Shown: positions 4,677 through 46,243 of the stretch, piece by piece
Position numbering within the stretch: the first letter of the stretch is position 1
Layout: every line of letters begins with the position of its first letter
DNA from: Candidatus Hydrogenedentota bacterium
Lineage (GTDB): Bacteria > Hydrogenedentota > Hydrogenedentia > Hydrogenedentales > JAEUWI01
Reading direction: 5' to 3'
Assembly: GCA_019637335.1 (NCBI GenBank)
Contig: JAHBVV010000023.1
Location: forward strand, 1 to 64,000
DNA length: 64,000 bases
Translations under genes and position numbers: made by a program
The notes under the pieces: model-generated
Seen by the model: the letters and a program-made list of their open reading frames with translations, nothing else
Database searches by the model: none
Told to the model about the DNA's origin: nothing

Positions 4677-4704
4677 CCACCGCGTATCGGGCAAACACGC
4701 GCGA

Positions 4705-4743
4705 CGCCGGCGCCTGGAACTGCTCCAGGCGCCGGCGCTTCTT
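4705..4743 (+). terminator. Intrinsic terminator after the cold-shock gene
   Basis: A perfect 14-bp stem (4705-4718 pairs with 4724-4737) closes a 5-base loop and is followed by CTTCTT. It lies 28 bases after the stop codon. The trailing T-run is interrupted, but the stem is very stable. Confidence 0.8.
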
Positions 4744-5064: not shown

Positions 5065-5130
5065 CCCTCAATGAAAATCCCGGCTCTTCGTCTCCTCCCT
5101 CGTCAGCCGCGTCTCGGGCGCCCAATATTC
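5065..5130 (-). pseudogene. Copy of the dnaE2 3' end (displaced remnant)
   Basis: Aligned base by base, 5065-5130 matches 6424-6489 at 57 of 66 positions. On the minus strand it reads ETRLTREETKSRDFH followed by a stop; the real DnaE2 ends ETRLTTEETRSRDFH and a stop. The DUF1016 gene lies exactly between the two copies. It is either the original end of dnaE2, displaced by an insertion that supplied a new end, or the remnant of a second dnaE2. See the findings. Confidence 0.75.
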
Positions 5131-5156
5131 ACCCGTACCTGGCAGGGGCCCCCATC

Positions 5157-6236
5157 TCACTCGCGATCATCTTGCGCTCGGTTTTCGATGCGCGCGCGCG
5201 ACCGCCGTATGGCATCGTGGAAGCGCGCGGCCAGCACCTCGCGCGGCGGGAGGGCGGTGAGGTATTCCGCGACGTGGATGCCGGATTGGCCAAGTTCCAG
5301 CAGCTCGATTTGCTCCTCTTTCTTCCCCGCGCAGAGAATGATGCCGAGGGGCGCCTGCTCGCCGGGTTCCTGTTCGTGATTCGCGAGCCAGCGGAGATAG
5401 AGCTCCATTTGCCCTTTGTGTTCCGGCCGGAACGCGCTCAACTTGAGATCGAGCGCCACAATCCGGTGGAGTTTTCGGTGGTAAAAGAGCAAATCGAGGT
5501 AGAAGTCGTCGTTGTCGATCTGGATGCGCTTCTGGCGCGCCACAAACGCGAAACCGGCGCCCATTTCCAGAAGAAAATGCTCCATCTCCCGGAGGATCGC
5601 GTCTTCGATGTCCTTCTCGAAGTAGCGGTCATTCAATCCAAGGAAATCGAGGATGTAGGGGTCCTTGAAGACCAGAGCCGGACTCATCCGGTCGCCATCG
5701 CGCAATTGCGCCAATTCGTGTTCAATGACCTCTTCCGGCTTCTTCGACAGGGCGGTGCGTTCGTACAACATCGAGTCGATCTTCTTCTGGAGCGTACGCG
5801 TGCTCCATTTTTCGATGCGGCACATTTCGGCGTAAAAATCGCGTTTGAGCGGGTCGTCGATATAGATAATCCGTAGAAAGTGCGTCCAACTCAATTGTCT
5901 CATCAGTGATGAGACAATTGCCTCGTCGGGAAATGACTCATAGAATCGCATCATGTGACGAAGACTCTTCGCACTGAATCCCTTGCCAAATTCCGATTCA
6001 AATTGTCTCCCCAGTGCGGAGACAATTTGCGCCCCGTACTTCGCCCGCTCCCGACCAAGAATTTCTTCGCCTATTCGCTTTCCGATCCGCCAGTGAAGCA
6101 TAGTCAGCGCCGCATTAACCGCCACGGACACGGTAGTCCGTGTTTCCTCCACCAGACGGCGAATGTCCCCTACGAGTTCCACGGACGCCACATCGTTCTG
6201 CGCCTGCAATTTCCGCTGCTTTGCCTTTCCGCCCAT
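5157..6236 (-). CDS. YhcG-type PDDEXK nuclease (DUF1016)
   Basis: A 359-residue protein of the DUF1016/YhcG family. The N-terminal half has the helical DUF1016_N signature (LHWRIGKRIGEEIL, FSAKSLRHMMRFYESFP, LSWTHFLRI). The C-terminal half has the PDDEXK nuclease core: FYLDLLFYHRKLHRIVALDLK, with the acidic residue and the DLK lysine, and later GQMELYLRWL. The family is common near restriction systems and mobile DNA; its substrate is not established. The start at 6236 has GGAGG six bases upstream, better than the in-frame ATG at 6284. The gene stands alone and is bracketed by two copies of the dnaE2 3' end, suggesting arrival by insertion. Confidence 0.9.
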   Translation of the reverse strand: MGGKAKQRKLQAQNDVASVELVGDIRRLVEETRTTVSVAVNAALTMLHWRIGKRIGEEILGRERAKYGAQIVSALGRQFESEFGKGFSAKSLRHMMRFYESFPDEAIVSSLMRQLSWTHFLRIIYIDDPLKRDFYAEMCRIEKWSTRTLQKKIDSMLYERTALSKKPEEVIEHELAQLRDGDRMSPALVFKDPYILDFLGLNDRYFEKDIEDAILREMEHFLLEMGAGFAFVARQKRIQIDNDDFYLDLLFYHRKLHRIVALDLKLSAFRPEHKGQMELYLRWLANHEQEPGEQAPLGIILCAGKKEEQIELLELGQSGIHVAEYLTALPPREVLAARFHDAIRRSRARIENRAQDDRE

Positions 6237-6426
6237 CAGAAGCCTCCCAAGGTTAGTGATACCGCATACTGAAAATATTATCACTTATTTGAGATTCTTG
6301 CAAGGATAATATCAACCCGAAATATCAACCGGGAGTGCGCCGGAAAGCGGGCATAGATCGGTTTTCTTTTGTGGCTTTCGGTTCCTGATTCGATTTCCGT
6401 GGTCTTACCAGATTCAACGCCTGCCC

Positions 6427-9400
6427 TCAATGAAAATCCCGACTCCTCGTCTCCTCCGTCGTCAGCCGCGTCTCCGGAACCCAGAGTTCCTCCGCCACAA
6501 GATGCGTGACGCCGGACTGCACCTGCAATTTCCCCGTGACCCCGATAAACGGCTGCGTTTTCACCAGCGTCCGGTGCTTCTGGTACACCGTCTCCCACAC
6601 CACCAGGTTCACCAGGCCCGTTTCGTCCTCCAGCGTCATAAACACCACCCCGTTGGCCGTCCCGGGACGTTGCCGGCAGATGACCAGCCCCGCATAGCGC
6701 GTGCGGGACCCATTTTTCATCCCCGCCACCGTGGCGGCGTCCGGGAGCCCCGCCGCCGCGAGCGCGTCGCGGTAGGGGGCGATGGGATGCCCGTGCGTGC
6801 TGTGGCTGGTATAGGCGTAATCCCAGTGAATCGCCTCCGCCAGGCTGAGCGTATTGAGCGCCGCGTCCGGCTCCGGCGTCTGCACCCGGAGCTGCGCGTG
6901 CAGCTCGCGGTCGAGCCCCAGGGCCCGCCACAGCGCGCTCCGGCGATCATCCGCAAACGCCGCCAGCGCCCCGGCCTCCGCAAGCCGCGTCAGCGCCCCA
7001 TGCGGCAGCCGCGCCCGCAACGCAAAATCCTCCAGCGACGCAAAAGCCCCCGTCTCCCGCGCGGCGATGATCCGGCGCGCCTCGGCCTCCTGCAAGCCCT
7101 TCACAAAGCGCAAACCCATTCGCGTTTCAAGAGTAGGATAGGCGTCCCGCCTGTCCAGGACAGCCGGGACGGCTATCCTACTTTCTTCCAACGTACACTC
7201 CCAGTCGCTATACCGCACATCGATCGGCCGCACCGCCACCCCGTGCCGCTTCGCATCCTCCACCAGCGTCGCCGGGCTGTAAAAACCCATGGGCTGCGCG
7301 TTGAGCAGCGCCGCCAGAAACGCCGCCGGGTAATGTTGTTTGAGCCACGCCGTGGCGTACGCTATCAGCGCGAAGCTGGCCGCGTGGCTTTCCGGAAAGC
7401 CATACTCCCCGAAGCCCTGAATCTGCTCGAACACCCGCTCCGCAAATTCCCGCGCGATCCCCTTCTTCATCATCCGAGAAATCAGGCGGTCCCGGTGCCG
7501 CAGAATACGCCCGCTCTTGCGCCACGCGGCCATGTCCCGCCGGAGTTGGTCGGCCTCGCCCGGCGTGTAGTCCGCGGCCACCATCGCCAGTTGCATCACC
7601 TGCTCCTGAAACAAGGGAATCCCGAGCGTCTTCTTCAGCACCGGCTCCAGACACGGGTGCGGATAGGTCACCGCCTCTTCTCCGTTCCGCCGCCGCAAAT
7701 ACGGATGCACCATGCCCCCCGTGATCGGCCCGGGCCGCACGATGCTCACCTCGATCACCAGGTCGTAATAATTCCGAGGGCGCAGGCGCGGCAGCATGGC
7801 CATCTGCGCGCGGCTCTCGATCTGAAACACCCCCACCGTGTCCCCCCGCTGGATCTGCGCAAAGGTCGCCGCATCGTCCGGCGGGATCGTCGCAAGCGTC
7901 CAGCGCGCGCCTTCGTGCTGCTCGATCAAATCGAAGGCCTTGTGCACCACATTCAGCGCGCCCAGCCCCAGCAGGTCCACCTTGAACAGTCCCAGATCCT
8001 CGATGTCCTCCTTGTCCCACTGGATCACCGTGCGATCCGCCATGGCCCCGTTTTCAATCGGCACGAGCGTATCCACCGGCTCGTGCCCCAGCAGAAAACC
8101 GCCGGGATGGATGGAAAGATGCCGCGGCACGTCCTCGATCTCCCGCACCAGCCGCAGCAAATGCCGGTGGGCCGGCGCCTCGGGATCGAGCCCCGCCGCC
8201 CGAAGCGTCTCCGCCGATGGAAAATCGTGGTGCGACAGGTGGCGCGCCAGCCGCTCCAGCGCGGTCTCGGCGATACCCAGCGCCTTGCCCACGTCGCGCA
8301 CCGCCGATTTCGCGCGGTAACGGATGAAATTCGCCACCATCGCCGCGTGGCCCCGGCCATAGTGCCTGTAAACGTACTGGATCGCCTCCTCACGCCGGTT
8401 GTGCTCGATGTCCAGGTCAATATCCGGCGGTTCGTTGCGCTCGCGGGACAAAAAACGCTCAAAAAGCAGTCCCATCCGCACGGGATCCACCGATGTGATG
8501 CCCAGGCAATAGCACACCGCCGAATTCGCCGCCGATCCGCGCCCCTGGCAGAGGATATGCTCCCGCCGGCAGAACTGCACGATCTCCCGCATCGTGAGGA
8601 AGTATCCCTCAAACTCCAACTCGCGAATGAGATCCAGTTCCTTGTCCAGTTGCGCGCGGACATCCTCCGGCACGCCCTCCGGATAGCGATCCGCCGCCCC
8701 CGCATACGTCAGATCGCGAAAGTGGCTGGCCGCGTCCGAACCGTCGGGCAGCCGCTCCACCGGATAGCGGTAGCGGATCTCCGCCAGCGAAAACGTGCAG
8801 CGCGCCGCGATCGCCGCCGTGGCCTCCACCGCCTCCGGATCATCCCCGAAAAGCTCCGCGAAGCCGTGGGGGGCACGCAGGTAATGCTGGTCGTTCGGCT
8901 TGATGCGCACACCCGCCGCCCCCAGGCTCACCCCGTGGCGGATGCACGTCAGCACATCCTGCAGGGGCCGCCGCGTCGGCGTGTGGTAGAGCGTCTCCAT
9001 CCCCGCCGCGACCGGCAGCCCCAGCGCGCGCGCCCGCTCCCGAAGGCGGTGCTCCAGCCGCCCCTCGCCCACCTCCCGGTGCCGCGTCAACAGCGCGTAC
9101 AGCCGATCACCAAAGGCCTCCCGGAGCTGCCCCGCCTCGCGCCCCGGCGGCGCCTCCGCCAGCAGACGGCTGCCCGCCCCGCCCCACAGCGCGATGAGCC
9201 CCGCCGACCGCGCGCAAACCTCCTCCCACGAGACCCGGCTCTGCCCCTTCGGACAGCGCAGGCGCCCCGCGGAGATCAGCCGGCACAGGTTCGCATAGCC
9301 CCCGCGATCCATCGCAAGCAGGAGGATATGCGTGCCGTCGTCGATAGAAACCTCCGACCCGGCAATCAGGTGCACGCCCAGCTCCCGCGCGCGCTTGTGC

Positions 9401-9810
9401 GCCCGGGGCAGGCCATACACCCCGTCGCGATCCGTAAGCGCCAGCGACCGGATCCCCAGCCGGTGCGCCTCCTCCACCAGCTCATCCGGATGGCTCGCCC
9501 CCTCCAGAAACGAATACACGCTCTTGCACCACAACGCAGCGTAGACAGTGGACAGTTGACCGTTGACAGTGGACAGTTGAGAAGAGGGCGTTGAAGGCAC
9601 GGCGTCCCTGTTGTCTCTGTTGTCTCTGTTGTCTCTGTTGTCTCTGTTGTCTCTGTTGTCTCTGTTGTCCCTGTTGTCCCTGTAGTCCCTGTAGTCCCTG
9701 TCGTCCCTGTCGTCCCTGTTGTCCCTGTTGTCCCTGTTGTCCCTGTTGTCCCTGTTGTCCCTGTTGTCCCTGCTGTCCCTGCTGTCCTTTTCGTCCCACC
9801 CCCCCATCAT
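6427..9810 (-). CDS. dnaE2: Error-prone DNA polymerase DnaE2 with repeat-encoded segments
   Basis: A C-family polymerase of translesion synthesis, partner of ImuA and ImuB. The 1127 residues hold a PHP domain with a degenerate first metal site ([20 protein letters not shown]), the palm motif PPDIDLD (461-467, catalytic aspartates), the thumb/fingers, and a C-terminal OB fold ([25 protein letters not shown]). The start codon overlaps the imuB stop as ATGA (9807-9810), so translation is coupled. Two oddities: residues about 9-70 are a low-complexity run of N/S/D/Y-R-D triplets made by a 9-bp DNA array, and residues about 876-895 are made by a palindromic repeat inserted in a loop between CTLEE and MGLRFVKGL. 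Both keep the frame. No other start codon lies between the array and the PHP domain. Confidence 0.93.
   Translation of the reverse strand: [1127 protein letters not shown]
7133..7181. repeat. Palindromic element (family F) inside dnaE2
   Basis: Two 24-base arms (7133-7156 and 7158-7181) around a single A pair at 22 of 24 positions. The arm GTAGGATAGCCGTCCC... is the unit repeated about nine times at 21598-22170 and once at 31687. Here it is read in frame and gives the peptide [18 protein letters not shown] in DnaE2. Confidence 0.85.
9603..9789. repeat. 9-bp tandem array A1 (GTCCCTGTT type), in frame in dnaE2
   Basis: About 20 contiguous units of GTCCCTGTT, GTCTCTGTT, GTCCCTGTA and GTCCCTGTC. 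Read on the minus strand they encode (N/Y/D/S)RD triplets at the N terminus of DnaE2. It is followed at 9545-9580 by another repeat, an imperfect duplication of ACAGTGGACAGTTGA. There are no spacers, so this is not a CRISPR. Confidence 0.9.
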
Positions 9811-11291
9811 TGCACTTCCCCCTGCAGATACCAGCGCCGCCGCCGCAAATCGTGATAAATCCAGAACCAGCGGTTGCTCCGCGTCCGCGCATAGTAATAG
9901 GCGCGGCTCACCTCCCCCCGCCACCACCCCCCGTTGATCAGCTGCGGCCCGATCACCTCCTCCACCGGCCCCTCGGACACCCCCGCAATCAACCACCCAT
10001 CCGGCTCGTGCCGATCCCGGGGCGGCAGCGGGATCGCCGGGCGGTAGATCCGCCGGACCAGCGGCGCGGACGCCACCGCCACCGGCTTCGGGCGCGGCAG
10101 ATCCCCCAGCGCCTCCCAGCAATACTGCGCCTCGGGCAAATGACCCGCGCCCAGCCGCGCCGCCACCACCGCGTCGTTCCCCAGCTCCGCGCGGATCGCC
10201 GCAAAAGCCCGCGCCGCCGCCGCCAGGTTGCGCCGGGGCGCCTCCTGAAATAGATCCGTCTGCCGCTGCGATATTGGCTGCCCCTCGGCCCGCGCCTCCA
10301 GCTCCACCACGCCCGACGGAAAACTCCGCTGCTCCAGGTGAAGCCGCGCCAGGCGCAGGATCTGGTTCGCATCGCGCGTGGGCGCCGCCGGAATAAGCTC
10401 CCCCGACGCCTCGCCCCCGTTGTCCAGCACGAACCGCCAGTGCAGCGCCCGCAGGTTTTCATGCCGCCCCTCCAGCTCCGAAAGCAGCCCCCGCAGGAGT
10501 TCCGCCAGGCGCGCCACCAGCCGCCCGCAATCCGTCTCCGGGTAATCCAGCAGCACCGCCGCCGTCACGGCCTCGCGGACCGGCAGCGGCTGCAAGGGAC
10601 GCCAGCCGCTCCCCTTCGCCAGCCGGTAGATCGCCTCCGCCTCCGCTCCGAAGCGCTTGCGCAGCCCCCGCGCCGGCAACGAAAGAAACTGGCCCACCGT
10701 CTCGATGCCCAGCTTGTACAGCGTGTCCTGCACCCCCGCTTCCAGCCGCAGATGGCTCACCGGCACGCCATCCGCACACGCCTGTTCCTCGGCGGGCGTC
10801 GTAAAAACAATATTTTCCCTCCGCGACCGCGCCGCCACATAGCTCCCGAAACGGCTGAAACCCACCGCCACAACCGCCTGAAAACCCGCTCCCCGAAAAT
10901 CCTCCCGCACCGCCTCCGCCCACCGCCCCAGCGACGGATACACGATCCCCATCCCCGACACGTCCGCCCAGAACACCCCGGGCTCCTCCGGCGACGGCTC
11001 CACCCGCGGGCTGAAATCCCACAGCCGTTGCGTGAGCTCCGCCGAGGCCGCCCCCACCAGCGCATCCGCCACTTCGCCCCCGCGCAATTCCGGCGCCAGC
11101 GCCAGCCCCGCCGCATAGCGCATGCCCGGAAAAATGCGGAACCCCCGCGCCGCCGTGTTCGTCCACTGGATCACGCCGTTCGGCTTGTCCCGGTCCACCA
11201 CAACCACCGGCCGCCCGCGCCAATCCGGATGCGCGCGCACCAGCAGCTGCAACGGCAGCGCCGGGCAATTAACACAGGCCATCCGGTCCAT
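9807..11291 (-). CDS. imuB: ImuB, inactive Y-family polymerase of the mutasome
   Basis: A 494-residue member of the ImuB/DNA polymerase Y family. The opening MACVNCPALPLQLLVRAHPDW is typical, followed by VVVVDRDKPNGVIQWTNTAARGFRIFPGMRYAAGLAL, the helix-hairpin-helix-like LGIETVGQFLSLPARGLRKRFG, and a C-terminal region with the WFWIYHDLRRRRWYLQG ending. In known cassettes ImuB links DnaE2 to the sliding clamp and lacks polymerase activity. ATG 11291 is chosen because GAGGA lies eight bases upstream. It overlaps imuA by 23 bp and dnaE2 by 4 bp, so the three genes form one operon. Confidence 0.92.
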   Translation of the reverse strand: MDRMACVNCPALPLQLLVRAHPDWRGRPVVVVDRDKPNGVIQWTNTAARGFRIFPGMRYAAGLALAPELRGGEVADALVGAASAELTQRLWDFSPRVEPSPEEPGVFWADVSGMGIVYPSLGRWAEAVREDFRGAGFQAVVAVGFSRFGSYVAARSRRENIVFTTPAEEQACADGVPVSHLRLEAGVQDTLYKLGIETVGQFLSLPARGLRKRFGAEAEAIYRLAKGSGWRPLQPLPVREAVTAAVLLDYPETDCGRLVARLAELLRGLLSELEGRHENLRALHWRFVLDNGGEASGELIPAAPTRDANQILRLARLHLEQRSFPSGVVELEARAEGQPISQRQTDLFQEAPRRNLAAAARAFAAIRAELGNDAVVAARLGAGHLPEAQYCWEALGDLPRPKPVAVASAPLVRRIYRPAIPLPPRDRHEPDGWLIAGVSEGPVEEVIGPQLINGGWWRGEVSRAYYYARTRSNRWFWIYHDLRRRRWYLQGEVQ

Positions 11292-11910
11292 GGCGCAATT
11301 CCTCATAGGTCCAGCCCGGAGCCCGGCGCTTGTCCTTCAACGCCCGCAACTCGCAGGAAAAACAATCGTGCCCCGCACGCCGCTTACCCGTCGCGCAGCG
11401 CAGCGACACCAGCGATCCGCGGGAAGAACGCTCCCCCGGCGAACGCAGCGTCACCAGCGCCGTATGGTATTGCACCGCCAGCCCCGCCAGCCGCGTCTGC
11501 ACCCCGAGCGGCAACGCCTGCGCATCGCCATCGAACACCACCAGCGCAAAACTCCCCGAGCGCAGCAAGGTATCCGCCACGCGCGCCGCCCGGGCCGCGT
11601 CCGGCGCGCGCACCACCGGCAACGCCGCCAGATCCACCCCCGACGCAGCAAAGTCCGGCGGGAAAAAAATCCGCCCCGGCCCCGCTATCCACGCGGCCAG
11701 CCCCTGCTGCGCCTGCGCCTCCCGGATCAGCCCCGCTGCCAGGCTCAGGGCCGCCGTCCCCGATCCCGGCCCAAACTCCAGCGCCACAAAACGCCCCAAC
11801 GCCGCGGCAAGCGACCAGGCCTCCGGCGGCGCGTCGTGGATACGGCGATCCAACAGGGTGCTGGCGGTGGTGATATCGGCGATAGCGGACGGGGCGCTGG
11901 CGGCGGACAT
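11269..11910 (-). CDS. imuA: ImuA-like RecA-fold protein
   Basis: A 213-residue first gene of the imuA-imuB-dnaE2 operon. The RecA-like core is visible: LEFGPGSGTAALSLAAGLIREAQ in place of a Walker A loop, without the usual lysine; AAWIAGPGRIFFPPDFAASGVDL; FALVVFDGD as a Walker B-like strand; and a cysteine-containing tail (DCFSCELRALK). ImuA of other bacteria is needed for damage-induced mutagenesis and contacts ImuB and RecA. ATG 11910 has GGAG seven bases upstream; the open frame further upstream is only translated repeat array. Assignment rests on fold and position together. Confidence 0.85.
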   Translation of the reverse strand: MSAASAPSAIADITTASTLLDRRIHDAPPEAWSLAAALGRFVALEFGPGSGTAALSLAAGLIREAQAQQGLAAWIAGPGRIFFPPDFAASGVDLAALPVVRAPDAARAARVADTLLRSGSFALVVFDGDAQALPLGVQTRLAGLAVQYHTALVTLRSPGERSSRGSLVSLRCATGKRRAGHDCFSCELRALKDKRRAPGWTYEELRHGPDGLC

Positions 11911-11959
11911 GGCGCGGCTCCTTTCCGGGGGCGAAAATTGGGGGTTGACTTCTTCTCTT

Positions 11960-11988
11960 ATTTTACTGAAAATAAATTCAGTTGTAAA
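11960..11988 (-). promoter_or_regulatory. imuA promoter with an embedded LexA-like dyad
   Basis: On the minus strand TTTACA (11988-11983) and TAAAAT (11965-11960) are 17 bases apart. The spacer holds a perfect dyad, ACTGAA-N6-TTCAGT (11965-11982). A repressor bound there would block RNA polymerase, as LexA does at SOS genes. It lies about 50 bases upstream of the imuA start. Confidence 0.6.
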
Positions 11989-12004
11989 GAGAAAGAGCAA
12001 AAAG

Positions 12005-12216
12005 GTCCCTGCCCTGCTGTCCCTGCTGTCCCTGCTGTCCCTGCCGTCTCTGCCGTCTCTGCCGTCTCTGCCGTCCCTGCCGTCTCTGCCGTCTCTGCCG
12101 TCTCTGCCGTCTCTGCCGTCTCTGCCGTCTCTGCCGTCCCTGCTGTCCCTGCTGTCCCTGCTGTCCCTGCTGTCCCTGCTGTCCCTGCTGTCCCTGCTGT
12201 CCCTGCCGTCCCTGCC
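12005..12216. repeat. 9-bp tandem array A2 (GTCCCTGCT / GTCTCTGCC)
   Basis: About 23 contiguous 9-bp units fill the gap between the imuA promoter and the stop codon of the next minus-strand gene (12221). Blocks of GTCCCTGCT flank a block of GTCTCTGCC units, which suggests expansion by slippage or unequal exchange. No spacers. Confidence 0.9.
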
Positions 12217-12220
12217 CCCG

Positions 12221-12928
12221 CTACGCCGTCTCCCGCAGCCGCGCCTCCCGCTCAAACGACAGCACCCCGAGCCCGTTCCACCACATCGCCAGGTCCCCGT
12301 TATACCGCGACGGAAGCTCGTAGAGCAGTTTCATGCGCCCCTCCAGCTCTTTCGCCGCGCGCAGGGTCGCGACCCGCGCATACGACCCCGAATCCGGCGC
12401 AAAACGCCAGTCATCCACCAGAATCAGGGCCTGGTCGGCCAGAAACGGCTCCACCAGCCGGATCGCGTCGTACTGGTCGACATAATCGTGCCCCCCGTCA
12501 TAGAAATAAAGCCCCACGGGCGCCTTCAGTAGGCTGTGGTCAAAAACCCGGCGAAAATCCGCGTTGCAGAAGTTGACCTGCTCCCGCAAGCCATAACGCT
12601 CGAGATTCCCCTGCAACACTTCGAAACTGTTCCCGTCAAACTCCGAAAAATTGTCCGCCGCATAGACCGCGCGCCGGGGATTGCCCAGCATCGCGGAAAT
12701 CAGGCTCTTCCCCATGTACGTGCCCACCTCCAGGTAGGCTTCATTCTCGGGCAGCAGCGAATAGGCCAGGTGGAGCAGCCGCTGCTTCTTCACCGAAAGC
12801 ATCCCCGGCACATCCGGGCAGGAGTCCCGCGCCCGATGCCGCTCCCGATCCTCCAGGCCAGGCTCCGGCCGGTTGCGGCCCGACCCGAACGCGCTCCAGA
12901 ATTCCCGGCGAAACCGCGCGATGTCCAT
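12221..12928 (-). CDS. Class I SAM-dependent methyltransferase (Methyltransf_24 type)
   Basis: A 235-residue protein. The SAM-binding motif I is YLEVGTYMGKSLISAML, followed by the acidic end of strand 2 (AVYAADNF), a strand-4 motif (GLYFYDGGHDY) with the DGxH signature of Methyltransf_24, and ALILVDDW. Relatives in this family methylate sugars or small molecules in surface polysaccharide or natural-product clusters; the substrate here is unknown. ATG 12928 is preceded by GGAGG at ten bases. The stop codon abuts repeat array A2. Next to it on the other side is a divergently read lipoprotein gene. Confidence 0.82.
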   Translation of the reverse strand: MDIARFRREFWSAFGSGRNRPEPGLEDRERHRARDSCPDVPGMLSVKKQRLLHLAYSLLPENEAYLEVGTYMGKSLISAMLGNPRRAVYAADNFSEFDGNSFEVLQGNLERYGLREQVNFCNADFRRVFDHSLLKAPVGLYFYDGGHDYVDQYDAIRLVEPFLADQALILVDDWRFAPDSGSYARVATLRAAKELEGRMKLLYELPSRYNGDLAMWWNGLGVLSFEREARLRETA

Positions 12929-13120
12929 GCCCGCCAATCCTCCGTCCGGGCGCGCCACGCGCCCTGGAGAAGAGTATCGGCAACCCCCGCGCGCGCCTTT
13001 ACACCCCAGCGCGCTTGATCAGGCCCATCCCGCCGGGCATACTGGCGGTTCCCGGCAGTCTGAAGCGGCGCTACAGCCGCGAACCGCATTGCCCATAAGC
13101 CAGAAAAGGAACACCACGCC

Positions 13121-14983
13121 ATGGCGCGCTTTACGATGCACAAACCCCTCCACGCCCTGCTTTACGCCACCGCCCTGCTCGCCGGACTGGCCCTGCTGGG
13201 CAGCGGCTGCGGCGGCAAGGAAGTGGAAACGCCGCCGGAAGAGGCCGCCGCCCCGCCGCTCGCGCCCGTAACCGCGGTGGAAGAGCCGGCCATCCCCAAC
13301 ACCGCGCCCCCCTCCGTGCCCATGGGCGATATCGTCCCGGTCACGCTGTCCGTGCTGCAATACATGCCCGAAAAAGCCCAGGTCGCCCTCGCACTCCCGC
13401 CCGCGCCGGGCCTCCTGAGCGATCTCGAAGCGCTCGCGCGCGTCGGCGAGCCCGAAGCCGTCGTGCGCGAAAGCCAGGCCGAGCTCTTCCGAAATCTTGG
13501 CGCGGATCTCGGCATCGAAGCCGGCAGCTTCGAAGAATTGGCCGCCGCCCTGGCCGCGGACCCCAACGCGCCCATCGGGGTATTCTTCGATTTCGAGCCC
13601 ATGGTCAAATCCGCCGCGGATGCTCAAACCGCCGCGCGGGCCTCCGGCGCCGCTCCCTTGGATACGCTGGGGGACGCGGGAAGTCCGGCATGGCTCCTCG
13701 TATACGGCGCGACCGATCCCGCGGCGGCGATTGAAGCCCTGGAACGCATCGCGGACCGACACGAAAAACTGCGCGGCATACCGGCCGCCTCCGAAGAAGC
13801 CGCCGGCGTCCGGATGCTCGCCCGCGGAGACTTCGCCTACTTCGCCGCCGGACGGCGCATCCTCGCCGGCAACCTGGACTTGCTGCGCGGCGCCGCGGAA
13901 CGGGTCGCGACGCCGGCCACCCTGCGCTACGGCACCGTGGAATGCCCCGCCGCGGCGGCGGACGAAGTCGCCATGCTCGTCTACGGCGGGCGATTCCTCC
14001 CGCTCATGCGCGACGTCATGCCCGTCTTCGCTGGCGACAAACTGGAAATGGCGATCGCCGCCGCGCAACTCGAAAAATATGAGAAGACCTTCGGCCCCGA
14101 AGACAACGACCCCATCGTGGTCACCGCCCATATGGCCGGCGACCGGCTGGAATTCCTCGTCCGCGCCGACACCGCAACCCACCCCGGCATGCTCGAAACG
14201 GCCGGCCCCGCCGCGCCCCTCCGCCTCGCGCGCCTCCTCCCCGAGAATACCGAGGCCTTCATGAGCATCCGCACCAACGACCAGTTCAAGGCCCAGATGA
14301 CCGAAGCCATGCTCCCCCAGGGCGGCCAGGCGGCGGACCCCGACGCCATCATGCAGCTTTCAATGGCCTCCCAGATCCTCTCGCAAATCGGCGACGAGAT
14401 CACCCTCGGCATCGCCCCGGGAATCGCCGGCATGCCCGAAATCCACCTCCTGCTCGGGCTCGCCCAGCCGCAGGTGACCCAGGGCATCCTGCAGGTCATC
14501 CTGCAGCCCGCCCCCGCCGGCGAGGTCGCCGGCACGGCCATCAGCCGGGTCGACACCCCCCTCGGCCTTCCAGTGTTTCTCAGCTACCTCTCCGACTTCG
14601 CCATCGCAAGCACCTCGGAAACCGGCATTCGCGGAGCCATCGAGCGCCACCAGGCGGGCCAGGTCTCCAGCTTATTCGCCGCCATGGATCCCCCCTTCGA
14701 CATCGACGCGCCGCGCTACCAGGCCGCCGTCATCAACACCGCGATCGCTCAGAATATCGCCGGCGCCGCCGCCATGTTCTCGCCCGACGCCCCGGCTCTG
14801 CCCGAATACGCCCCCTTCCTGACCGCGTTTCGACAGATCCGCGCCAGCCAGGATCTGGACGGTTCCTGGCTCACCGGACGCCTCACAGTGTACCTCGGAG
14901 ATCTCGCCGCCGCCGCCGCACTGCGCGAACAGCTTGCCGAGTCGGGGGGGCCAATCCCCGCCGCCAGCAGCGAGAACCCCTGA
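13121..14983 (+). CDS. Large secreted lipoprotein, DUF3352-like, function unknown
   Basis: A 620-residue protein with a hydrophobic signal segment ending in LLGSGC (Cys30), so it is predicted to be lipid-anchored. A low-complexity proline/alanine linker (about 35-65) is followed by an all alpha/beta region with repeated patterns: VQYMPEKAQVALALP near the start and LLPENTEAFMSIRTN near residue 370, each followed by a helix and an antiparallel sheet. This two-copy pattern resembles DUF3352-type proteins. No catalytic motif is seen. It is transcribed alone, divergent from the methyltransferase. Confidence 0.65.
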   Translation: MARFTMHKPLHALLYATALLAGLALLGSGCGGKEVETPPEEAAAPPLAPVTAVEEPAIPNTAPPSVPMGDIVPVTLSVLQYMPEKAQVALALPPAPGLLSDLEALARVGEPEAVVRESQAELFRNLGADLGIEAGSFEELAAALAADPNAPIGVFFDFEPMVKSAADAQTAARASGAAPLDTLGDAGSPAWLLVYGATDPAAAIEALERIADRHEKLRGIPAASEEAAGVRMLARGDFAYFAAGRRILAGNLDLLRGAAERVATPATLRYGTVECPAAAADEVAMLVYGGRFLPLMRDVMPVFAGDKLEMAIAAAQLEKYEKTFGPEDNDPIVVTAHMAGDRLEFLVRADTATHPGMLETAGPAAPLRLARLLPENTEAFMSIRTNDQFKAQMTEAMLPQGGQAADPDAIMQLSMASQILSQIGDEITLGIAPGIAGMPEIHLLLGLAQPQVTQGILQVILQPAPAGEVAGTAISRVDTPLGLPVFLSYLSDFAIASTSETGIRGAIERHQAGQVSSLFAAMDPPFDIDAPRYQAAVINTAIAQNIAGAAAMFSPDAPALPEYAPFLTAFRQIRASQDLDGSWLTGRLTVYLGDLAAAAALREQLAESGGPIPAASSENP

Positions 14984-21597: not shown

Positions 21598-22262
21598 CGC
21601 AGGATGGCCGTCCCGCCGGTCCAATGTGGGATGGCCGTCACGGCGGTCCAATGTAGGATAGCCGTCCCGGCTGTCCAACGCGCCAACGGCGCAACAGGGA
21701 CGCAGACATTCGTGTCCGCGAACATCGTAGGATAGCCATCACGCCGGTCCAAAGAGCCAACGGCGCAACAGGGACGCAGACATTCCTGTCTGCGAATAAC
21801 GTAGGATAGCCGTCCCGCCGGTCCAACGCGCCAACGGCGCAACAGGGACGCAGACATTCTTGTCTGCGAATAACGTAGGATAGCCGTCCCGGCTGTCCAA
21901 CGCGCCAACGGCGCAAGTCATACCAGCCTGGGCCAACGGCCCAGGATCACCACACCTCAACCGCAACAGGGCTGAAAGCCCGTATCATACCCCCCATCGC
22001 TCATCCCCCCGCCCCCATTCCTGTCTGCAAATAACGTGGGATAGCAGTCCGAGCTGTCCAATGTAGGATAACCGTCCCGGCGGTCAAACGCGCCAACGGC
22101 GCAACAGGGACGCAGACATTCCTGTCTGCGAATAACGTAGGATAGCCGTCCCGCCGGTCCAACGCGCCAACGGCGCAAGTCATACCAGCCTGGGCCAACG
22201 GCCCAGGATCACCCCACCTCAACCGCAACAGGGCTGAAAGCCCGTATCATACCCCCCTTCGC
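21598..22262. repeat. Composite repeat block: family F units and hairpin repeats
   Basis: About nine copies of a GGATAGCCGTCCC... unit alternate with CGCAGACATTCCTGTCTGCG hairpins and GCCAACGGCGC. Two copies of a longer block follow (CATACCAGCCTGGGCCAACG, then AACAGGGCTGAAAGCCCG). The segment ending near 22018 duplicates the one ending near 22278, so the last bases of the neighbouring minus-strand gene are copied too. The block has no gene. Confidence 0.88.
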
Positions 22263-24674
22263 TCATCCCCCCGCCCCCACATCGCCCGCGTTCTCCACCC
22301 GAACCTCGATCACTACCTCCCCCGAATACCCGCTCAGGTCAATCGTGCCGCTATCCGCCTCAAACGCAACCGTTTCCCCGCCGGCCGTCACCGCTGCCAT
22401 CCGGTACGGCGCCGGCAACCGCAACCGCAGCCGAATCACCGAAGCCGCATCGCGATCCGGCAGCGTCACCCGCGCCTCCACGCGCCCCTCCGCCAGACGC
22501 GACACAATCCGATAACTCACCGCCCCAAAACACGTGGGCGCCCCGTCCACGGCGATCACCTTGCCGTCCTCCAGCCATTCCCGCGGCGTGGCGTGCGCCA
22601 GAAACAGCCCCTCCGGCGCGCCCGTGTCGCTGTTGAAGGACTCGCGCACCAGCATCAGCCGAAGGTTCAGCAGAAACGCCGTGTTGTTCGCGCTCGAGGG
22701 CGTCCCGTAGCACGATCGGTACGCCACGCCAGGACGCGCGCCAATCGTCGATCCCTCCCCGGCCACAAAGGTGTTCCGCGTCATCCCGTGCGCCAGCTTC
22801 CCGTAGAAACTCAGCACCTGCCGGTCCGCATCGTCCTGCGCCGCAAGCACACGAAGGTAACTTGGCAGATACACGTTGTCGTCGCCCGTGGTGTAGTAGC
22901 CGGGCAACCCATCGGCCCGATACGCCCCAATCGGCGTCGGATAATAGTTGAAGCGCAGCAACCCCAGAAAAAGCCCGCCGTAACCGTGCATATAGTCCAG
23001 GATCCGCCCGATCTCCGGACCATCCAGGGGCCAGTAGCCCGACGCAAACGCATACGGCATCACCAGGTTCCAGTAGCTCCCGGTCTTGGTCTCCGTGATA
23101 AACGGATAGGCCGCTTCCTCCAGGTACAGCGCGCGGGGCACGAAGAGCGACCCATCCTCCAGCGGCTGAACCGCGCCGCGCATCCCGTCGTCAATCGCGG
23201 CCTTCAGCCGGTCCGCAACCGGACGCCACGTCTCGTAAAGATCTTCGCGCCCGATGGCCCGCCACACCTCCGCCATGTCGCGCATCCCCTGCCAGCCGAG
23301 CGTCTGGTGAAAGATGAAGTACGCCACCTCGGGTATATCGCCGCACTGCCGCTGCTTCATCAGCAGGCCGTGCGGATCCGCCTCCATCTGCGCGCGAAAG
23401 GCCTCGCATATCGCCACATACGCCTCCGTGTGCGCGTGGATAAAGTCGGCGTCCCGCGTCAGATAGTAATAGTGCGCGCCGTGCGTAAGCTTCTCGCCGC
23501 GCTCCCAGTTGATGTAGTAGTCCTGGCCCTTGGTCATGTCCAGCAAGGCCGCCAGGCCGTCGCGGTAGGCTTCCGGATGCCCGAATTCGCCCAGCGTCTG
23601 CACGGCGTCGCTGCTCTCCGGCTGGTAGAAGCTCCCGTGGTACACCACCGCTCCCAGCGAGTAGCGCCACCGCATGATGAGGTTCTGAATCAGCAGGTTC
23701 CGCTGCGCGTCCATCACGATCGCCTCGGGCGCGTCGAAGCGGAGCACGGGCGCGAGCCGCCCGTCCCAGTACAATTTCATGGCATCGCGGGCCCGCGCGT
23801 AATCCGCTTTCGAAAGCGCTGTCTCGCGCGAAACCGGCCCCTCCGGCGACCACACCGCATACAGCGTGTGCTCTCCCGGCCCCATCCGCCACGTCAGGGA
23901 GTCCGCATCCTCCTCCGCGGGCGCCACGCCGGGCGAAACAACATAGCGGAAGCGTTCCATGGCGTCATCGCCGAACCGCGCGCGCAGCACCGCGCCATTT
24001 TCGCCGTCCCCCACCTCCACGCGCAGCCGGATCCACGCAAGAAGTCCGCCGCCGCCGGGCGCCCGGCCCGCAAAGCTCTCCTGCGCGTAGCGGTTCCCCG
24101 CCTGGTCGGTGTAGGCCGTCTGAAGCACCGGCAGCCACCCTTCCGCGAGAGCGGGACCCTCCAGCCGCGCCAAATCGCTGCCAAAGGCCTCGCCGTCCGG
24201 CCCCACATGCCACGCCAGGTAGTCCTCGCTCTGGTAGACATTCGCCGCGATCCGGCTGCCGTCCGCCAGCGGAATGACATACGGCGGATCGCCCCCGTCC
24301 TCCCCCCAGAGCAGGTTGTGAACACCCCGTTCCGTATACGCGTGGCCCGTCGAGTAAAACAGAGGCCGCAGCAAATCCTTTATCCCGTCATACGTCGCCC
24401 CGCCCCCCGCAATCAGCGCCTCGCCCCACACATCCCGCCCCTCGCGCAACGCCGCATCGAGCCGCGCCGCGTAGGGCCCGGGCTCTGCCACCACGATCGT
24501 CCCGGTAGCGCGCTGCTCTTCGCTTTCCAGGCGCTCGGGTTCGGGATCGGCGGATTCCTGCCCATGCACGAATGACGACGCAAGGATCAGGCTCACGCTC
24601 ACAGCAGCGATTGCGCGCATTCGAACGAAAAGCAAGCCGGCACGCCTATTCCGCGCTGTACATCGAAGTCTCAT
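22263..24674 (-). CDS. Secreted six-hairpin glycosidase-like protein
   Basis: An 803-residue exported protein. A signal peptide (MRAIAAVSVSLILASSFVHG, preceded by a short basic stretch) is followed by a beta-sandwich-like N domain, a long helical barrel region rich in Trp/Tyr (VYHGSFYQPESSDAVQTLGEFGHPEAYRDGL, YYINWERGEKLTHGAHYYYLT) and a C-terminal beta domain. This layout is that of (alpha/alpha)6 glycoside hydrolases. No family signature is certain, so the substrate is left open. The ATG at 24674 has only a weak ribosome site; 24620 is an alternative that begins exactly at the signal peptide. The last codons lie inside a duplicated repeat block. Confidence 0.7.
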   Translation of the reverse strand: MRLRCTARNRRAGLLFVRMRAIAAVSVSLILASSFVHGQESADPEPERLESEEQRATGTIVVAEPGPYAARLDAALREGRDVWGEALIAGGGATYDGIKDLLRPLFYSTGHAYTERGVHNLLWGEDGGDPPYVIPLADGSRIAANVYQSEDYLAWHVGPDGEAFGSDLARLEGPALAEGWLPVLQTAYTDQAGNRYAQESFAGRAPGGGGLLAWIRLRVEVGDGENGAVLRARFGDDAMERFRYVVSPGVAPAEEDADSLTWRMGPGEHTLYAVWSPEGPVSRETALSKADYARARDAMKLYWDGRLAPVLRFDAPEAIVMDAQRNLLIQNLIMRWRYSLGAVVYHGSFYQPESSDAVQTLGEFGHPEAYRDGLAALLDMTKGQDYYINWERGEKLTHGAHYYYLTRDADFIHAHTEAYVAICEAFRAQMEADPHGLLMKQRQCGDIPEVAYFIFHQTLGWQGMRDMAEVWRAIGREDLYETWRPVADRLKAAIDDGMRGAVQPLEDGSLFVPRALYLEEAAYPFITETKTGSYWNLVMPYAFASGYWPLDGPEIGRILDYMHGYGGLFLGLLRFNYYPTPIGAYRADGLPGYYTTGDDNVYLPSYLRVLAAQDDADRQVLSFYGKLAHGMTRNTFVAGEGSTIGARPGVAYRSCYGTPSSANNTAFLLNLRLMLVRESFNSDTGAPEGLFLAHATPREWLEDGKVIAVDGAPTCFGAVSYRIVSRLAEGRVEARVTLPDRDAASVIRLRLRLPAPYRMAAVTAGGETVAFEADSGTIDLSGYSGEVVIEVRVENAGDVGAGG

Positions 24675-30903: not shown

Positions 30904-30970
30904 CAACCCCACCACGCTCCCCGAGCCCGCCAAAAGGCCGCCCCACCGGTCCCTGAGCCCGCCGAAGGGC

Positions 30971-31188
30971 CGTCCCTGTAGTCCCTGTAGTCCCTGTAGT
31001 CCCTGTACTCCCTGTAGTCCCTACCGTCCGCCGTCCCTGCCGTCCCTACCGTCCCTACCGTCCCTACCGTCCCTGCCGTCCCTGCCGTCCCTGCCGTCCC
31101 TGTAGTCCCTGTAGTCCCTACCGTCCGCCGTCCCTGCCGTCCCTGCCGTCCCTGTAGTCCCTGCCGTCCCTGTAGTCCCTGCAATCCA
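30971..31188. repeat. 9-bp tandem array A3 (GTCCCTGTA / GTCCCTACC)
   Basis: About 24 units, in blocks of GTCCCTGTA, GTCCCTACC and GTCCCTGCC with two GTCCGCC interruptions. It lies downstream of the phosphoesterase gene and runs up to the leader of the HPF-like gene. Confidence 0.9.
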
Positions 31189-35464: not shown

Positions 35465-36187
35465 CGGCAAACTCCCGGCGGGCACAGCGCCCGCAGAACC
35501 ATTCTGCACCATCCCCTTGCCGCCGCGCGAAAGTTGTATCAGTCACCGATATCCAAACGCGGTGGCGGAGACATTTCTTTTCGGTAACATTTTAACCGCC
35601 TGAAGCAGGGAACAGTGCCTCAACAATTCGGGAGGTGGCTCGGCGGTAGGATCGCGGGCATTCCCTGCGGCAATGCCCGCTTCGGTCTTCACCGGGCATG
35701 GCTGGTATGGAATAGAATCCCGGCGTCCCAAGAACCCGATTGCAATAGGGACCGGCAAAATCGCCAATCACCGTCCACAAAAGCCCCGCCAATTCCAAAT
35801 ACGACGACGGACAAAAACTTGCGGTATGATGCACCGCGGGGACCCGACCATCGATGCCCGAAACGGCAGCGAACGCGAGCAAGGCTGGGAGCGCAGGCGT
35901 CCCCGCCTGCCCCCATGCACCAAAGGTGCATGGATAGTTGGCGATATCGCAAACAACTTCAAAGCGTAGCATCCCCCTCGGAGGCGGCCCATACAGGAGC
36001 ACGCGACACCCGCGCAATGCGGGCCGAAGATACCCCGAGTGGATGCGAAACCTCCCACACACCAGACCCATCGGCCAGAACACCCCCGAATAAGCCGATC
36101 ACGCGAATCGCAACCTCAAATTAACAACGCGGCCCACTTGATTTTTCGGAGGTCTTGAATGTGGTAGGATAGCGCTGAAGACAATCA
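35465..36187. repeat. Intergenic region before the RT operon, partial family D
   Basis: 35883-35933 carries GGCTGGGAGCGCAGGCGTCC and CCGCCTGCC, a part of family D. The rest has no recognisable gene. Base composition drops visibly from about 36120 on, at the edge of the AT-richer island. Confidence 0.55.
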
Positions 36188-36209
36188 ATCACCTCGGCGA
36201 CGAGGTGAT
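36188..36209. promoter_or_regulatory. Perfect 9-bp hairpin with GCGA loop before the RT operon
   Basis: ATCACCTCG (36188-36196) and CGAGGTGAT (36201-36209) are perfect complements around GCGA, a GNRA-type tetraloop. It lies 33 bases before the first start codon. As RNA it would be a stable structured leader or part of a small RNA; as DNA it is a symmetric operator. Confidence 0.55.
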
Positions 36210-36242
36210 GAAAGTGTTTCGACTTGGTCGGTATAGGTCGAC

Positions 36243-37208
36243 TTGGATTGGATACCGTTGAACCAGAAAATATTGAGAAGCTCTGATCTCCCAGGTTGTG
36301 TTTGGGACAGTATTGCTCGGGCACTTCGAATTCCCGATCAATTGTCCAAAGAATACTGCGACATGCTTAAAGAAAATAATCTGTACAGTATGGCATTTGC
36401 CAAGACACCGGGTGACGGTGCGGTAGGAGGGATAAAGGATGAGCATACGAAAGAGCATTTTGCGACCAGATTCCCAACGTCTTCAGCGCGTATTCAAGCA
36501 GTATTGCTTGATCCTTGGAGCGAGCTCGGCGCGGCTTCAGACGTGCTACTCACATCCTTCTCTGGCGGCCGGATTGGATTGCTCGACATTCCGTGTGGCG
36601 CGTGTGCCAGTTCAATAAGTCTACTCGCGACACTCGCTGCCTTACGCGAGTCGGGAGTCGTTCCACGCCAACCGCTCTACGTATGGATTTTGTCCGCTGA
36701 TATATCAGACCTTGCACGAAGCTACGCAAGTATTTTAATGGACAAAGTCCGAGATTCGCTGGAGAAACAGGGGATTCATGTCCACCAGAGATTTGAATCG
36801 TGGGACGTTCAAGATTCTCTGTCAAATACTGCCTTAATTGATGCTTGGATTCGCTGGATAGATGATTGCGACGAGCGATTCGTTCTAGTCACCAATTTCT
36901 CCGATTTTCTCGGCGACGACACTCGCTTCAAAAGGGCAGAAGAACGTCTGGGTGAAGTATTTCGCTGGGCGTCCATGCGGCAGGCCAAGGTACTATGGGT
37001 CGAACCACAAACCACAAAGGCTTCTAGGTTCTTGGATAAGCTGATCTCTTGGTTTCAGAATAAGGTTCCGCGCCTCATTAGGAAAGATATCAGTACCCAT
37101 GCAGACGGGGCGCTACAAACAAAGGTGAACTATATGCACCCCATCACTAAGCTCGGAACTACACGCGTGCGTTCCAGCGTAATTCGATTAGAAGTTGGTG
37201 AAAATTGA
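36243..37208 (+). CDS. Methyltransferase-fold protein, first gene of the RT operon
   Basis: A 321-residue protein that I do not recognise as a named family. The middle has the layout of a class I methyltransferase: LLDIPCGACASS (113-124) as a motif I loop, VWILSADISDLARSYAS with an acidic residue at the end of strand 2 (Asp153), SWDVQD (186-191) and RFVLVTNFSDFL (212-223) as strand 4. The N-terminal 100 residues are helical and the C terminus is basic. The start is a TTG (stop codon 9 bases upstream); TTG 36258, with GGAT before it, is an alternative. Its stop overlaps the TTG start of the reverse transcriptase by 4 bp, so the two are translated together. Codon use and G+C differ from the flanks. 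Function is unknown; a defence role with the RT is inferred. Confidence 0.78.
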   Translation: MDWIPLNQKILRSSDLPGCVWDSIARALRIPDQLSKEYCDMLKENNLYSMAFAKTPGDGAVGGIKDEHTKEHFATRFPTSSARIQAVLLDPWSELGAASDVLLTSFSGGRIGLLDIPCGACASSISLLATLAALRESGVVPRQPLYVWILSADISDLARSYASILMDKVRDSLEKQGIHVHQRFESWDVQDSLSNTALIDAWIRWIDDCDERFVLVTNFSDFLGDDTRFKRAEERLGEVFRWASMRQAKVLWVEPQTTKASRFLDKLISWFQNKVPRLIRKDISTHADGALQTKVNYMHPITKLGTTRVRSSVIRLEVGEN

Positions 37209-38932
37209 AAGGCGCTCCAGAGACACTCGCCGCGCGCGCCGTAAATCAATATCGCAGACGGGATATTATTGGGTTCCTCGGGGCTCGAATTTATCTTGAT
37301 CCGTGCTGCTCTCGCCGTGACATTTGGGCCACTGATGTCGCATCCACGCTTTCCGGACGAGAGTCGAAAGCCAATTACCACACGTCATATCACTTCAAAG
37401 AACACGACGAAGAAAGCCGCGGATTTCGTTATCGGGTACTCCATATACCTAGCCCCAATGAGATTCTTGCGGAGACAGCACTCCTATGGACATGTGCGGA
37501 GGCCGAAGGTGCATTCGGGAATTCCCCGTCAGTATACAGCTACCAACTCGCCCGAGGAAACGATCGGCGGGGCATTTTCGTTCCCTACTTTGAGGGATTT
37601 CGTCAGCGACATGCGGAAATTGCCCGCATGGCACGTTCCCTCAAGAATGGCATTGTCGTATATACCGATATAAGAAAGTTTTACCCGTCTATTCCTGCCG
37701 AAACCGCGAGACAGGCATGGCATGATACAGCGAAGTCGTGTCAGCTCCCGGGCCTAGCTGAGCGTCTTGGTCAGCGATTGCTCGACAACCATAGCGCTGT
37801 AGAGGACTCGAACGCACATGGTATCTTAACCGGGCCGATGTTTTCTCATGTTGTAGGAAATCTCGTCCTAAGAAACATCGATTCTGAAATGCGCCAGATA
37901 CTGCCGGACGGATACTTTCGGTATGTAGATGATTTCGCATTGGTTGGAAAACGTCGAGCAGTGATCGATGCGGAAAAGCGCTTAGCTGATCTGCTCGATG
38001 ATATCGGATTGAGCGTAAACAGAGACAAGAGGCTTGAGGTATCCACCCGTGATTGGCTGGTCGGTGCGGATGACTTTATGAATGAGCATCATCCAGTTTC
38101 CTGGATGACCTTTGTCGGAGGAATGAAGCAACTACTGATTACTAAACCGGCATTGGCGAAAACCCTGAAAGACAATCTCGAAGTCAACGGTTTTCGCATT
38201 TCTCCGTTGAACTATTCAGACGCGGTTCGAGAGAGAAGATTTATTCGACGGTTTTATGAGCTTCATCTGAAGCGCTGGTACCAGTCTATTCTGCGCAACC
38301 TGAATCCTCACGACCTTATAGTAGAAGCCATTGAACTCAGATCGCGTTATGAAGGCGATTTTGAGACAGCGATTAATGGATCCGATACCTTAGAGGGCTT
38401 TGAGCGAAAACGCCGGATCCACCGCCTACGCCGCCTATGCAGTCGACTCATCTACTTGGCGTCGCCGAAGAAGCTCAGACACATTGCGACATCACTCGCG
38501 GCGCTGCCTGAAATGGCACTCTACTCCGCCGTGTTTGATGCGCTTGACAGAAGGGACATTAGCAACTTGCTTCCATATGGAGCCAATGCGGCTCACTCGG
38601 TCGCCCAGGCATTGTTATCGTCGCGTCCGCCGTTGAAGTGTACGTTGGACGACTGGACGGATGCCTCTCGCCAAGCGCGGGCCGTTTTCGTCGCACACGG
38701 TTTTTCGATTGATGGAAGTTCACCTGTCGACGCCAGTGAAATGGAGCAATTCTGCGCATGGAAAGGACATTCAATAACGGGACCCGGACCGTCGTCTACT
38801 TACTTTGGTGAACTGATTACCCTTCATGGTTTCGGAGAGTGCCGAAGGCATGACGAGCTTCTTGCGCACGCCTATGACATCGACGATGAGGTCGTCCTCG
38901 ATATGGGGACATTGCTTGAACAGTCTTACTGA
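37205..38932 (+). CDS. Reverse transcriptase with long C-terminal helical region (defence-type)
   Basis: A 575-residue RNA-directed DNA polymerase. The palm motifs are clear: motif A YTDIRKFYPSI (153-163, Asp155), motif B-like HGILTGPMFSHVVGNL (205-220), motif C YVDD (240-243, both aspartates) and motif D GLSVNRDKR (268-276). There is no maturase, HNH endonuclease or retron VTG motif, and the serine after GPMF is followed by His, not the Gln of diversity-generating RTs. About 260 residues after the palm are helical with no known domain, a layout seen in UG/Abi (DRT) anti-phage RTs. TTG start inside the previous gene's stop (TTGA). A bidirectional terminator and tRNA-Leu follow. Subfamily not assigned. 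Confidence 0.88.
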   Translation: MKGAPETLAARAVNQYRRRDIIGFLGARIYLDPCCSRRDIWATDVASTLSGRESKANYHTSYHFKEHDEESRGFRYRVLHIPSPNEILAETALLWTCAEAEGAFGNSPSVYSYQLARGNDRRGIFVPYFEGFRQRHAEIARMARSLKNGIVVYTDIRKFYPSIPAETARQAWHDTAKSCQLPGLAERLGQRLLDNHSAVEDSNAHGILTGPMFSHVVGNLVLRNIDSEMRQILPDGYFRYVDDFALVGKRRAVIDAEKRLADLLDDIGLSVNRDKRLEVSTRDWLVGADDFMNEHHPVSWMTFVGGMKQLLITKPALAKTLKDNLEVNGFRISPLNYSDAVRERRFIRRFYELHLKRWYQSILRNLNPHDLIVEAIELRSRYEGDFETAINGSDTLEGFERKRRIHRLRRLCSRLIYLASPKKLRHIATSLAALPEMALYSAVFDALDRRDISNLLPYGANAAHSVAQALLSSRPPLKCTLDDWTDASRQARAVFVAHGFSIDGSSPVDASEMEQFCAWKGHSITGPGPSSTYFGELITLHGFGECRRHDELLAHAYDIDDEVVLDMGTLLEQSY

Positions 38933-39128
38933 ACCGACATTTGGAAAGCGAATGATTTCTGTTTTCGACCATTCGACTACGACCTTCGAAAGCCTGGCGC
39001 GACTGACCGGTGAGAACAAGTGTATTTTGAGAGCGAAGTTTTTCAAAAGCAAGCGTTTAGCCGCATGCCAGGCCGCCCGATCGACGCCATTTGTCCTTAA
39101 TTTGCTATTACGCCTTCCCGCCAACGCA
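38933..39128. other. AT-rich tail of the RT island
   Basis: Between the RT stop and the terminator. A frame that begins near 38952 and runs on through the tRNA gene is not credible as a protein. A non-coding RNA partner of the RT would be expected here or before 36243, but no conserved structure can be proven by eye. Confidence 0.4.
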
Positions 39129-39167
39129 AAAGGCGATCCCCGCAAATTCGAGGATCGCCTTTATTTT
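39129..39167. terminator. Bidirectional intrinsic terminator
   Basis: AAAGGCGATCC (39129-39139) pairs with GGATCGCCTTT (39152-39162), an 11-bp stem with a 12-base loop, with T-rich sequence on the right (TTTATTTT) and A-rich on the left. It serves the RT operon on the plus strand and tRNA-Leu on the minus strand. Confidence 0.85.
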
Positions 39168-39170
39168 CAA

Positions 39171-39257
39171 TGGTGGGCGAGGCGGGAATCGAACCCGCAC
39201 GCGCTTGCGCGCAACGGATTTTAAGTCCGTCGTGTCTGCCGATTTCACCACTCGCCC
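39171..39257 (-). tRNA. tRNA-Leu(UAA)
   Basis: Read on the minus strand: acceptor GGGCGAG...CTCGCCC-A-CCA with encoded CCA, the D arm with TGGTGAAATCGGCA, anticodon loop CTTAAAA (anticodon TAA), a long variable arm (GCGCGCAAGCGCG) and T arm GGGTTCGATTCCC. 87 bases including CCA. It borders the AT-richer RT island with its 3' end towards the island. Confidence 0.96.
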
Positions 39258-46091: not shown

Positions 46092-46153
46092 ACGATAGTC
46101 CTCCTGGCGCAACACGCGCGACCCAGGCCCAGTGGATTTCCCGGCCCGCGCCT

Positions 46154-46243
46154 GTAGTCCCTGTAGTCCCTGTAGTCCCTGTAGTCCCTGTAGTCCCTGT
46201 AGTCCCTGTAGTCCCTGTAGTCCCTGCAGTCCCTGTAGTCCCT
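46154..46243. repeat. 9-bp tandem array A4 (GTAGTCCCT)
   Basis: Ten contiguous units, one with GCAGTCCCT. It ends exactly at the stop codon of the large fusion gene (46243), so it is part of the 3' untranslated region between two minus-strand genes. Confidence 0.92.

Follow-up and report, generated by a model that had tools for sequence, protein, structure and literature searches.

A group UG36 reverse transcriptase encoded with an Rsm22/METTL17-related methyltransferase-fold protein: a candidate two-gene antiphage unit in Candidatus Hydrogenedentota

The window (the whole 64,000-nucleotide stretch of Candidatus Hydrogenedentota DNA analysed here) contains a two-gene operon in which a protein with a predicted class I methyltransferase fold is encoded directly upstream of a reverse transcriptase (RT). 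We are highly confident of the two identities taken together, that is, of an RT of group UG36 and an Rsm22-like partner, and we consider it probable that the pair serves in defence. More tentatively, we propose that the operon is a DRT-type antiphage unit, in which the RT would make untemplated DNA and the partner would halt translation.

Operon layout and insertion site

The two open reading frames (ORFs) described in the initial annotation are present and intact; each begins with TTG, and they overlap by 4 bp (Table 1); the exact start of the partner gene is uncertain, with alternative in-frame TTGs 5 and 10 codons further in. The pairing of the two frames is not a matter of chance, because homologues of both are found across phyla in the same order and with the same overlap. 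The RT motifs A and C that had been read from the sequence are present, and the methyltransferase-like motifs LLDIPCG, ADIS and NFSD of the partner can be aligned over seven homologues.

The operon lies in a segment of low GC content (∼0.51 over 36-39 kb, down from ∼0.63, with ∼0.61-0.66 on both sides). A genome of the same genus (G035) and the window have in common a PQQ-type gene, the tRNA-Leu and the region that follows, and the spacing from the PQQ-type gene to the tRNA-Leu is ∼3.66 kb in the window compared with ∼0.1-0.3 kb in G035. Because G035 has the same flanks with only this short spacing between them, the operon must have been inserted at a conserved place; within the inserted piece of the window, we saw no integrase gene. 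The transfer that had been suspected from the AT-richer composition and the tRNA border is borne out by the low GC content, the confirmed tRNA-Leu and the absence of the operon from G035, and we conclude that the operon is spread horizontally.

Elsewhere, the window carries scattered arrays of related 9-bp tandem repeats (9604-9787, 12012-12216, 30969-31182 and 46151-46243; 10 to 24 copies per array; repeat units GTCCCTGTT, CCCTGCCGT, GCCGTCCCT and CCTGTAGTC) and, at 21601-22279, a 74-bp tandem repeat inside a 262-bp repeat, ∼91-96% alike.

Table 1. Features of the operon and its insertion site in the window, and the further loci with a UG36 pair
Feature	Position	Strand	Basis or remark
Low-GC insertion with operon, integrase-free, approximate limits	36120..39150	.	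GC profile; G035 comparison
Partner gene, 321-aa protein with predicted class I methyltransferase fold, Rsm22/METTL17-related	36243..37208	+	ORF, structure, profile-profile comparison
SAM-loop motif LLDIPCGAC codons, partner residues 113-121	36579..36605	+	P117, C118, G119 invariant, seven homologues
TTGA overlap, partner stop and RT start	37205..37208	+	NTGA at seven of seven readable junctions
Group UG36 reverse transcriptase, 575 aa	37205..38932	+	PADLOC RT_UG36
RT motif A YTDIRKFYPSI	37661..37693	+	D155 invariant, six homologues
RT motif C YVDD	37922..37933	+	YVDD invariant, six homologues
tRNA-Leu (TAA), host gene outside the system, borders insertion	39171..39257	-	93% identical tRNA at the matching G035 place
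UG36 pair loci L001, L002, L060			Caldilineaceae
UG36 pair loci L003 and, on a 7.2-Mb contig, L059			Planctomycetota
UG36 pair locus L025			Aliarcobacter faecis plasmid

Identity of the reverse transcriptase and its partner

The RT matches the PADLOC profile RT_UG36 (PDLC03775) over profile positions 2-555 of 557 (E 3e-161, 536 bits), no other group exceeds 56 bits, and the assignment to UG36 rests on this gap between profile scores. The RTs of loci L001-L003, L025 and L059 also fall in RT_UG36 by the PADLOC profiles. The full-length match agrees with the earlier placement of the protein among UG/Abi (DRT)-type RTs, and profile checks for group II intron and retron RTs left it far below the respective cut-offs, with 29.5 bits for the group II intron RT/maturase model (cut-off 300) and 32.3 bits for the retron St85-type RT model (cut-off 235). 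The best PADLOC retron model for one UG36 homologue likewise gave 32.1 bits. Because D155, D242 and D243 are invariant among six aligned RT homologues, the UG36 RT should be an active polymerase; several tyrosines (Y58, Y113 and Y128) are also invariant in the homologue alignment.

In a Foldseek search with a low-confidence structural model of the RT (pLDDT 65), the top solved structures were DRT6, Abi-P2, UG15/DRT4 and AbiK, at low TM-scores of ∼0.3. Class 1 DRTs are marked by an alpha-helical domain (HEAT-like, alphaRep) at the C-terminus. The C-terminal 270 residues of the UG36 RT are predicted to be helical, and the Foldseek alignments of this same model to class 1 RTs reach into them; a second structural comparison, however, aligned little beyond the polymerase, for which several RT families scored equally. 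As judged from the model, the RT is likely a class 1 DRT.

The partner was modelled (pLDDT 82.5, pTM 0.87) as a Rossmann-like class I methyltransferase fold with the SAM-loop motif. When the model was compared with 1000 chains, those of METTL17, Rsm22 and mt-SAF1 stood apart (Z 16.4-19.4, 255-262 residues aligned over residues 1-318, rmsd 4.3-4.6), the other chains reaching Z ≤13.1 over ∼200 residues; the initial ranking by Foldseek had placed other methyltransferase-fold proteins highest, at low TM-scores. In profile-profile comparisons with hhalign, the partner profile matched an alignment of eight bacterial PF09243 proteins at 97.8% (E 8e-13, 208 columns), compared with 25.8% over 19 columns for another methyltransferase alignment and ≤0.1% for column-shuffled alignments. 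Among single Rsm22 sequences, two of nine matched above 91% over ∼180 columns and seven at 1.9-46%, and eight other methyltransferase-type sequences remained at ≤40%, the better ones over <70 columns. The N-terminal helix (F P.S.A(R/K)), the SAM loop and an EP after strand 5 are common to the partner and Rsm22.

None of the seven partner proteins had a Pfam match above cut-off, PF09243 and the methyltransferase families included; partner protein P0001 had no match in NCBIfam, and a search of the sequences of solved structures with the partner alignment brought up nothing meaningful. A search of 386 genomes with the partner profile yielded the partner itself, one true Rsm22 (E 0.005) and a further match, to an 871-aa ORF (L089), which was set aside as a probable frame artefact of a high-GC region. 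The Fe-S/zinc cysteine motif of Rsm22 (APC..CP..WCHF) is absent from all seven partner proteins, and its OB-fold C-terminal domain is missing, the partner proteins stopping after the methyltransferase domain (for these features of Rsm22, see PMC8171064 and PMC11046306). Because the cysteines and the OB fold are used by Rsm22 on rRNA, ribosome binding may have been lost in the partner. Overall, predicted fold and profile matches indicate that the partner is a relative of Rsm22/METTL17 and not a member of that family by the usual criteria.

A fused counterpart is suggested by the PADLOC profile RT_UG35 (938 positions): because all seven partner proteins match its N-terminal part (positions ∼48-206), UG35 seems to have a domain of this kind joined to its RT. 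As a control, the same N-terminal region matched one of three true Rsm22 proteins and none of four other methyltransferase-type proteins. The RT part of RT_UG35 matches the UG36 RTs at 52-60 bits, compared with 536-558 bits for RT_UG36. A full-length UG35 protein was not found in the 386 genomes, where the best matches were UG35-like RTs that covered the RT part only. The RTs of L039, L040 and L041 are closest to UG35 by their RT part and lack the N-terminal domain; that of L039 has C-terminal HEAT repeats according to Pfam.

Distribution and neighbourhood of the pair

At all seven readable UG36 junctions, which come from the window, Chloroflexota, Planctomycetota and a Campylobacterota plasmid and thus from four phyla, a partner homologue lies directly upstream of the RT with an NTGA overlap, so that the adjacency in unrelated genomes for which the initial annotation had called was found, always in the same order. 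Identity to the window proteins is 22-37% for the RT homologues and 24-41% for the partner homologues. L004 and L060 belong to the same genome, and because a contig end truncates each of them, they may represent the halves of a single locus. Among loci L001-L058, many of which comprise only ∼1.5 kb of flank, the partner profile matched only beside UG36 RTs and never beside other RTs. The pairwise divergences of RT and partner correlate with an r of 0.95 (six pairs), a value that includes the relatedness of the organisms themselves.

The unit is rare and patchy over the phyla: it was found at full length in 1 of 68 genomes of its own phylum, and in the phylum samples in 1 of 400 genomes (phylum of L001) and 2 of 392 (phylum of L003). 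The plasmid search gave one match, in Aliarcobacter faecis; phage records gave no match, and viral contigs gave distant RTs only and no partner homologue. MAGs of Clostridiaceae and Bacteroidales (L005 and L006) contain very long open frames (1246 and 1692 aa) with a distantly UG36-like RT domain.

Two of the loci have known defence genes as neighbours. On the A. faecis plasmid (L025), the pair comes after genes of type I restriction and the Lamassu genes LmuA, which has a Cap4-type nuclease, and LmuB; the start of the partner overlaps with the LmuB end, and downstream there is a site-specific integrase. At L059, the partner shares 4 bp with the end of a type I restriction R subunit, and IetA and IetS follow the RT. 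These island neighbours support, short of proof, a defence role, as the initial annotation had proposed for the pair. Within the scanned flanks, no known defence genes were found near the copies in the window, L001 and L003.

Some genes close to the pair have no match in PADLOC or Pfam. In Caldilineaceae, a 458-aa co-directional gene lies directly upstream of the pair (L060, 1229-2605, minus strand), and the C-terminal end of its product may resemble that of HEPN-type defence proteins; at L002, a 1271-aa co-directional ORF (3145-6960, plus strand) ends ∼100 bp ahead of the pair and is possibly another defence gene. On the L025 plasmid, three such genes occupy 10067-14023 (plus strand) between the pair and the integrase, one of them annotated as VPA1262 family.

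Proposed mechanism, alternatives and relation to known systems

DNA synthesis by Abi and class 1 RTs is protein-primed and untemplated, and AbiA depends on it for defence (PMC11077055, PMC13174585). METTL17/Rsm22 binds rRNA in the head of the small subunit and obstructs the mRNA channel; methylation of rRNA by it is doubtful, at least in yeast (PMC11046306, PMC9892005), and methylation of mitochondrial tRNA in vitro has been reported for yeast Rsm22 (PMC8171064). On the model that we put forward, infection would lead the UG36 RT to make untemplated, protein-primed single-stranded DNA; the RT would bind the partner as an RNA- or ribosome-directed module, of the kind fused in UG35; once the RT is triggered, the partner would engage or methylate small-subunit rRNA or tRNA; and translation would stop in the infected cell, resulting in abortive infection. 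We infer, as did the initial annotation, an effector or modifier role for the partner. The parts of the model are held with different confidence. Untemplated synthesis, which is extrapolated from the closest solved relatives DRT6, Abi-P2, DRT4/UG15 and AbiK, is narrowly favoured, whereas translation as the target of the partner is somewhat less likely than not. Its most specific version, in which the effector would be a repurposed small-subunit assembly factor, released or activated by the DNA synthesis of the RT to bind or methylate decoding-centre rRNA or tRNA and so turn translation off, is speculative and should be regarded as unlikely.

Two other accounts of the partner keep the defence function of the UG36 unit. 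The partner could be an active SAM-dependent enzyme that acts on phage RNA or DNA, on the DNA product of the RT or on the RT itself, as would be suggested by its class I methyltransferase fold and by the PCG of the SAM loop (P117, C118 and G119) and the acidic D153 after strand 2, all invariant in seven homologues; however, the Aliarcobacter protein has Tyr in place of the motif I acid D115, an NPPY-type DNA-methyltransferase motif is absent, and the partner is closer to Rsm22, an RNA-binding family, than to other methyltransferases, and we consider this account rather unlikely. The variation among the seven homologues, D115 to Tyr and also N218 to Ala, would instead suit a non-catalytic subunit, RNA-binding or structural in nature, which would position or restrain the RT or sense on its behalf, with the DNA made by the RT as the active agent. 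Such a role is consistent with the fusion in UG35 and with yeast METTL17/Rsm22, in which the SAM motif is degraded, SAM density was not seen and a binding role has been suggested (PMC11046306), but the strict conservation of the PCG loop and D153 argues against it, and we hold it to be unlikely as well.

It is improbable that the unit is a class 2-like DRT, templated by a conserved ncRNA that is encoded next to its genes and handled by the partner. DRT2, DRT9, DRT10 and DRT3a operate in this way (PMC13174585, PMC12632851), and in the window, as in several relatives, a non-coding stretch of at least 0.24 kb lies after the RT; however, Rfam matched only tRNAs in the window and no ncRNA beside the RT gene, the flanks of the six or seven loci, which are few and divergent, have no common sequence or consistent folding signal, and L025 and L059 have no gap upstream of the pair. 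A mobile or housekeeping RT-methyltransferase module outside defence, such as one acting in RNA modification or stress, would fit the relation to Rsm22 and the window copy without adjacent defence genes but is most improbable in view of the very patchy distribution, the lack of the insertion in the genus neighbour G035 and the defence-island neighbours at two loci.

DRTs form a fast-moving class of immune systems, and how they protect the cell is decided by the partner or the DNA product of the RT. For the proposed UG36 antiphage unit, the constant partner of the Rsm22/METTL17 lineage, which appears also in fused form in UG35, would offer a concrete target in small-subunit rRNA or tRNA; a translation target, if true, would connect reverse transcription with the control of translation during phage defence. 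To call the pair an undescribed RT system, as the initial annotation did, was too strong, the RT group having already been named UG36 and given a PADLOC model. In the literature searched, we found no mention of UG36 as an RT group or of this partner and no functional test of UG36; the defining paper of the group, Mestre et al. 2022, may list the partner. The present analysis added the relation of the partner to Rsm22 and the fused form in UG35, neither of which the initial annotation had noticed; both may be known already.

Among known systems, the class 1 DRT/Abi RTs DRT6, DRT4/UG15, Abi-P2 and AbiK are alike in being the best Foldseek matches of the RT model, into the C-terminal helices. We know of no methyltransferase-fold partner described for any of these four. 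The PADLOC model RT_UG36 spans the RT only, and PADLOC is without a family for the partner. UG35 is a single fused protein, whereas the UG36 unit consists of two genes. Finally, the small-ribosomal-subunit assembly factors Rsm22/METTL17 (PF09243) resemble the partner in their whole-length fold with N-terminal helices; unlike them, the partner lacks the Fe-S/zinc cysteines, the OB-fold domain and a Pfam match and is always encoded adjacent to an RT.
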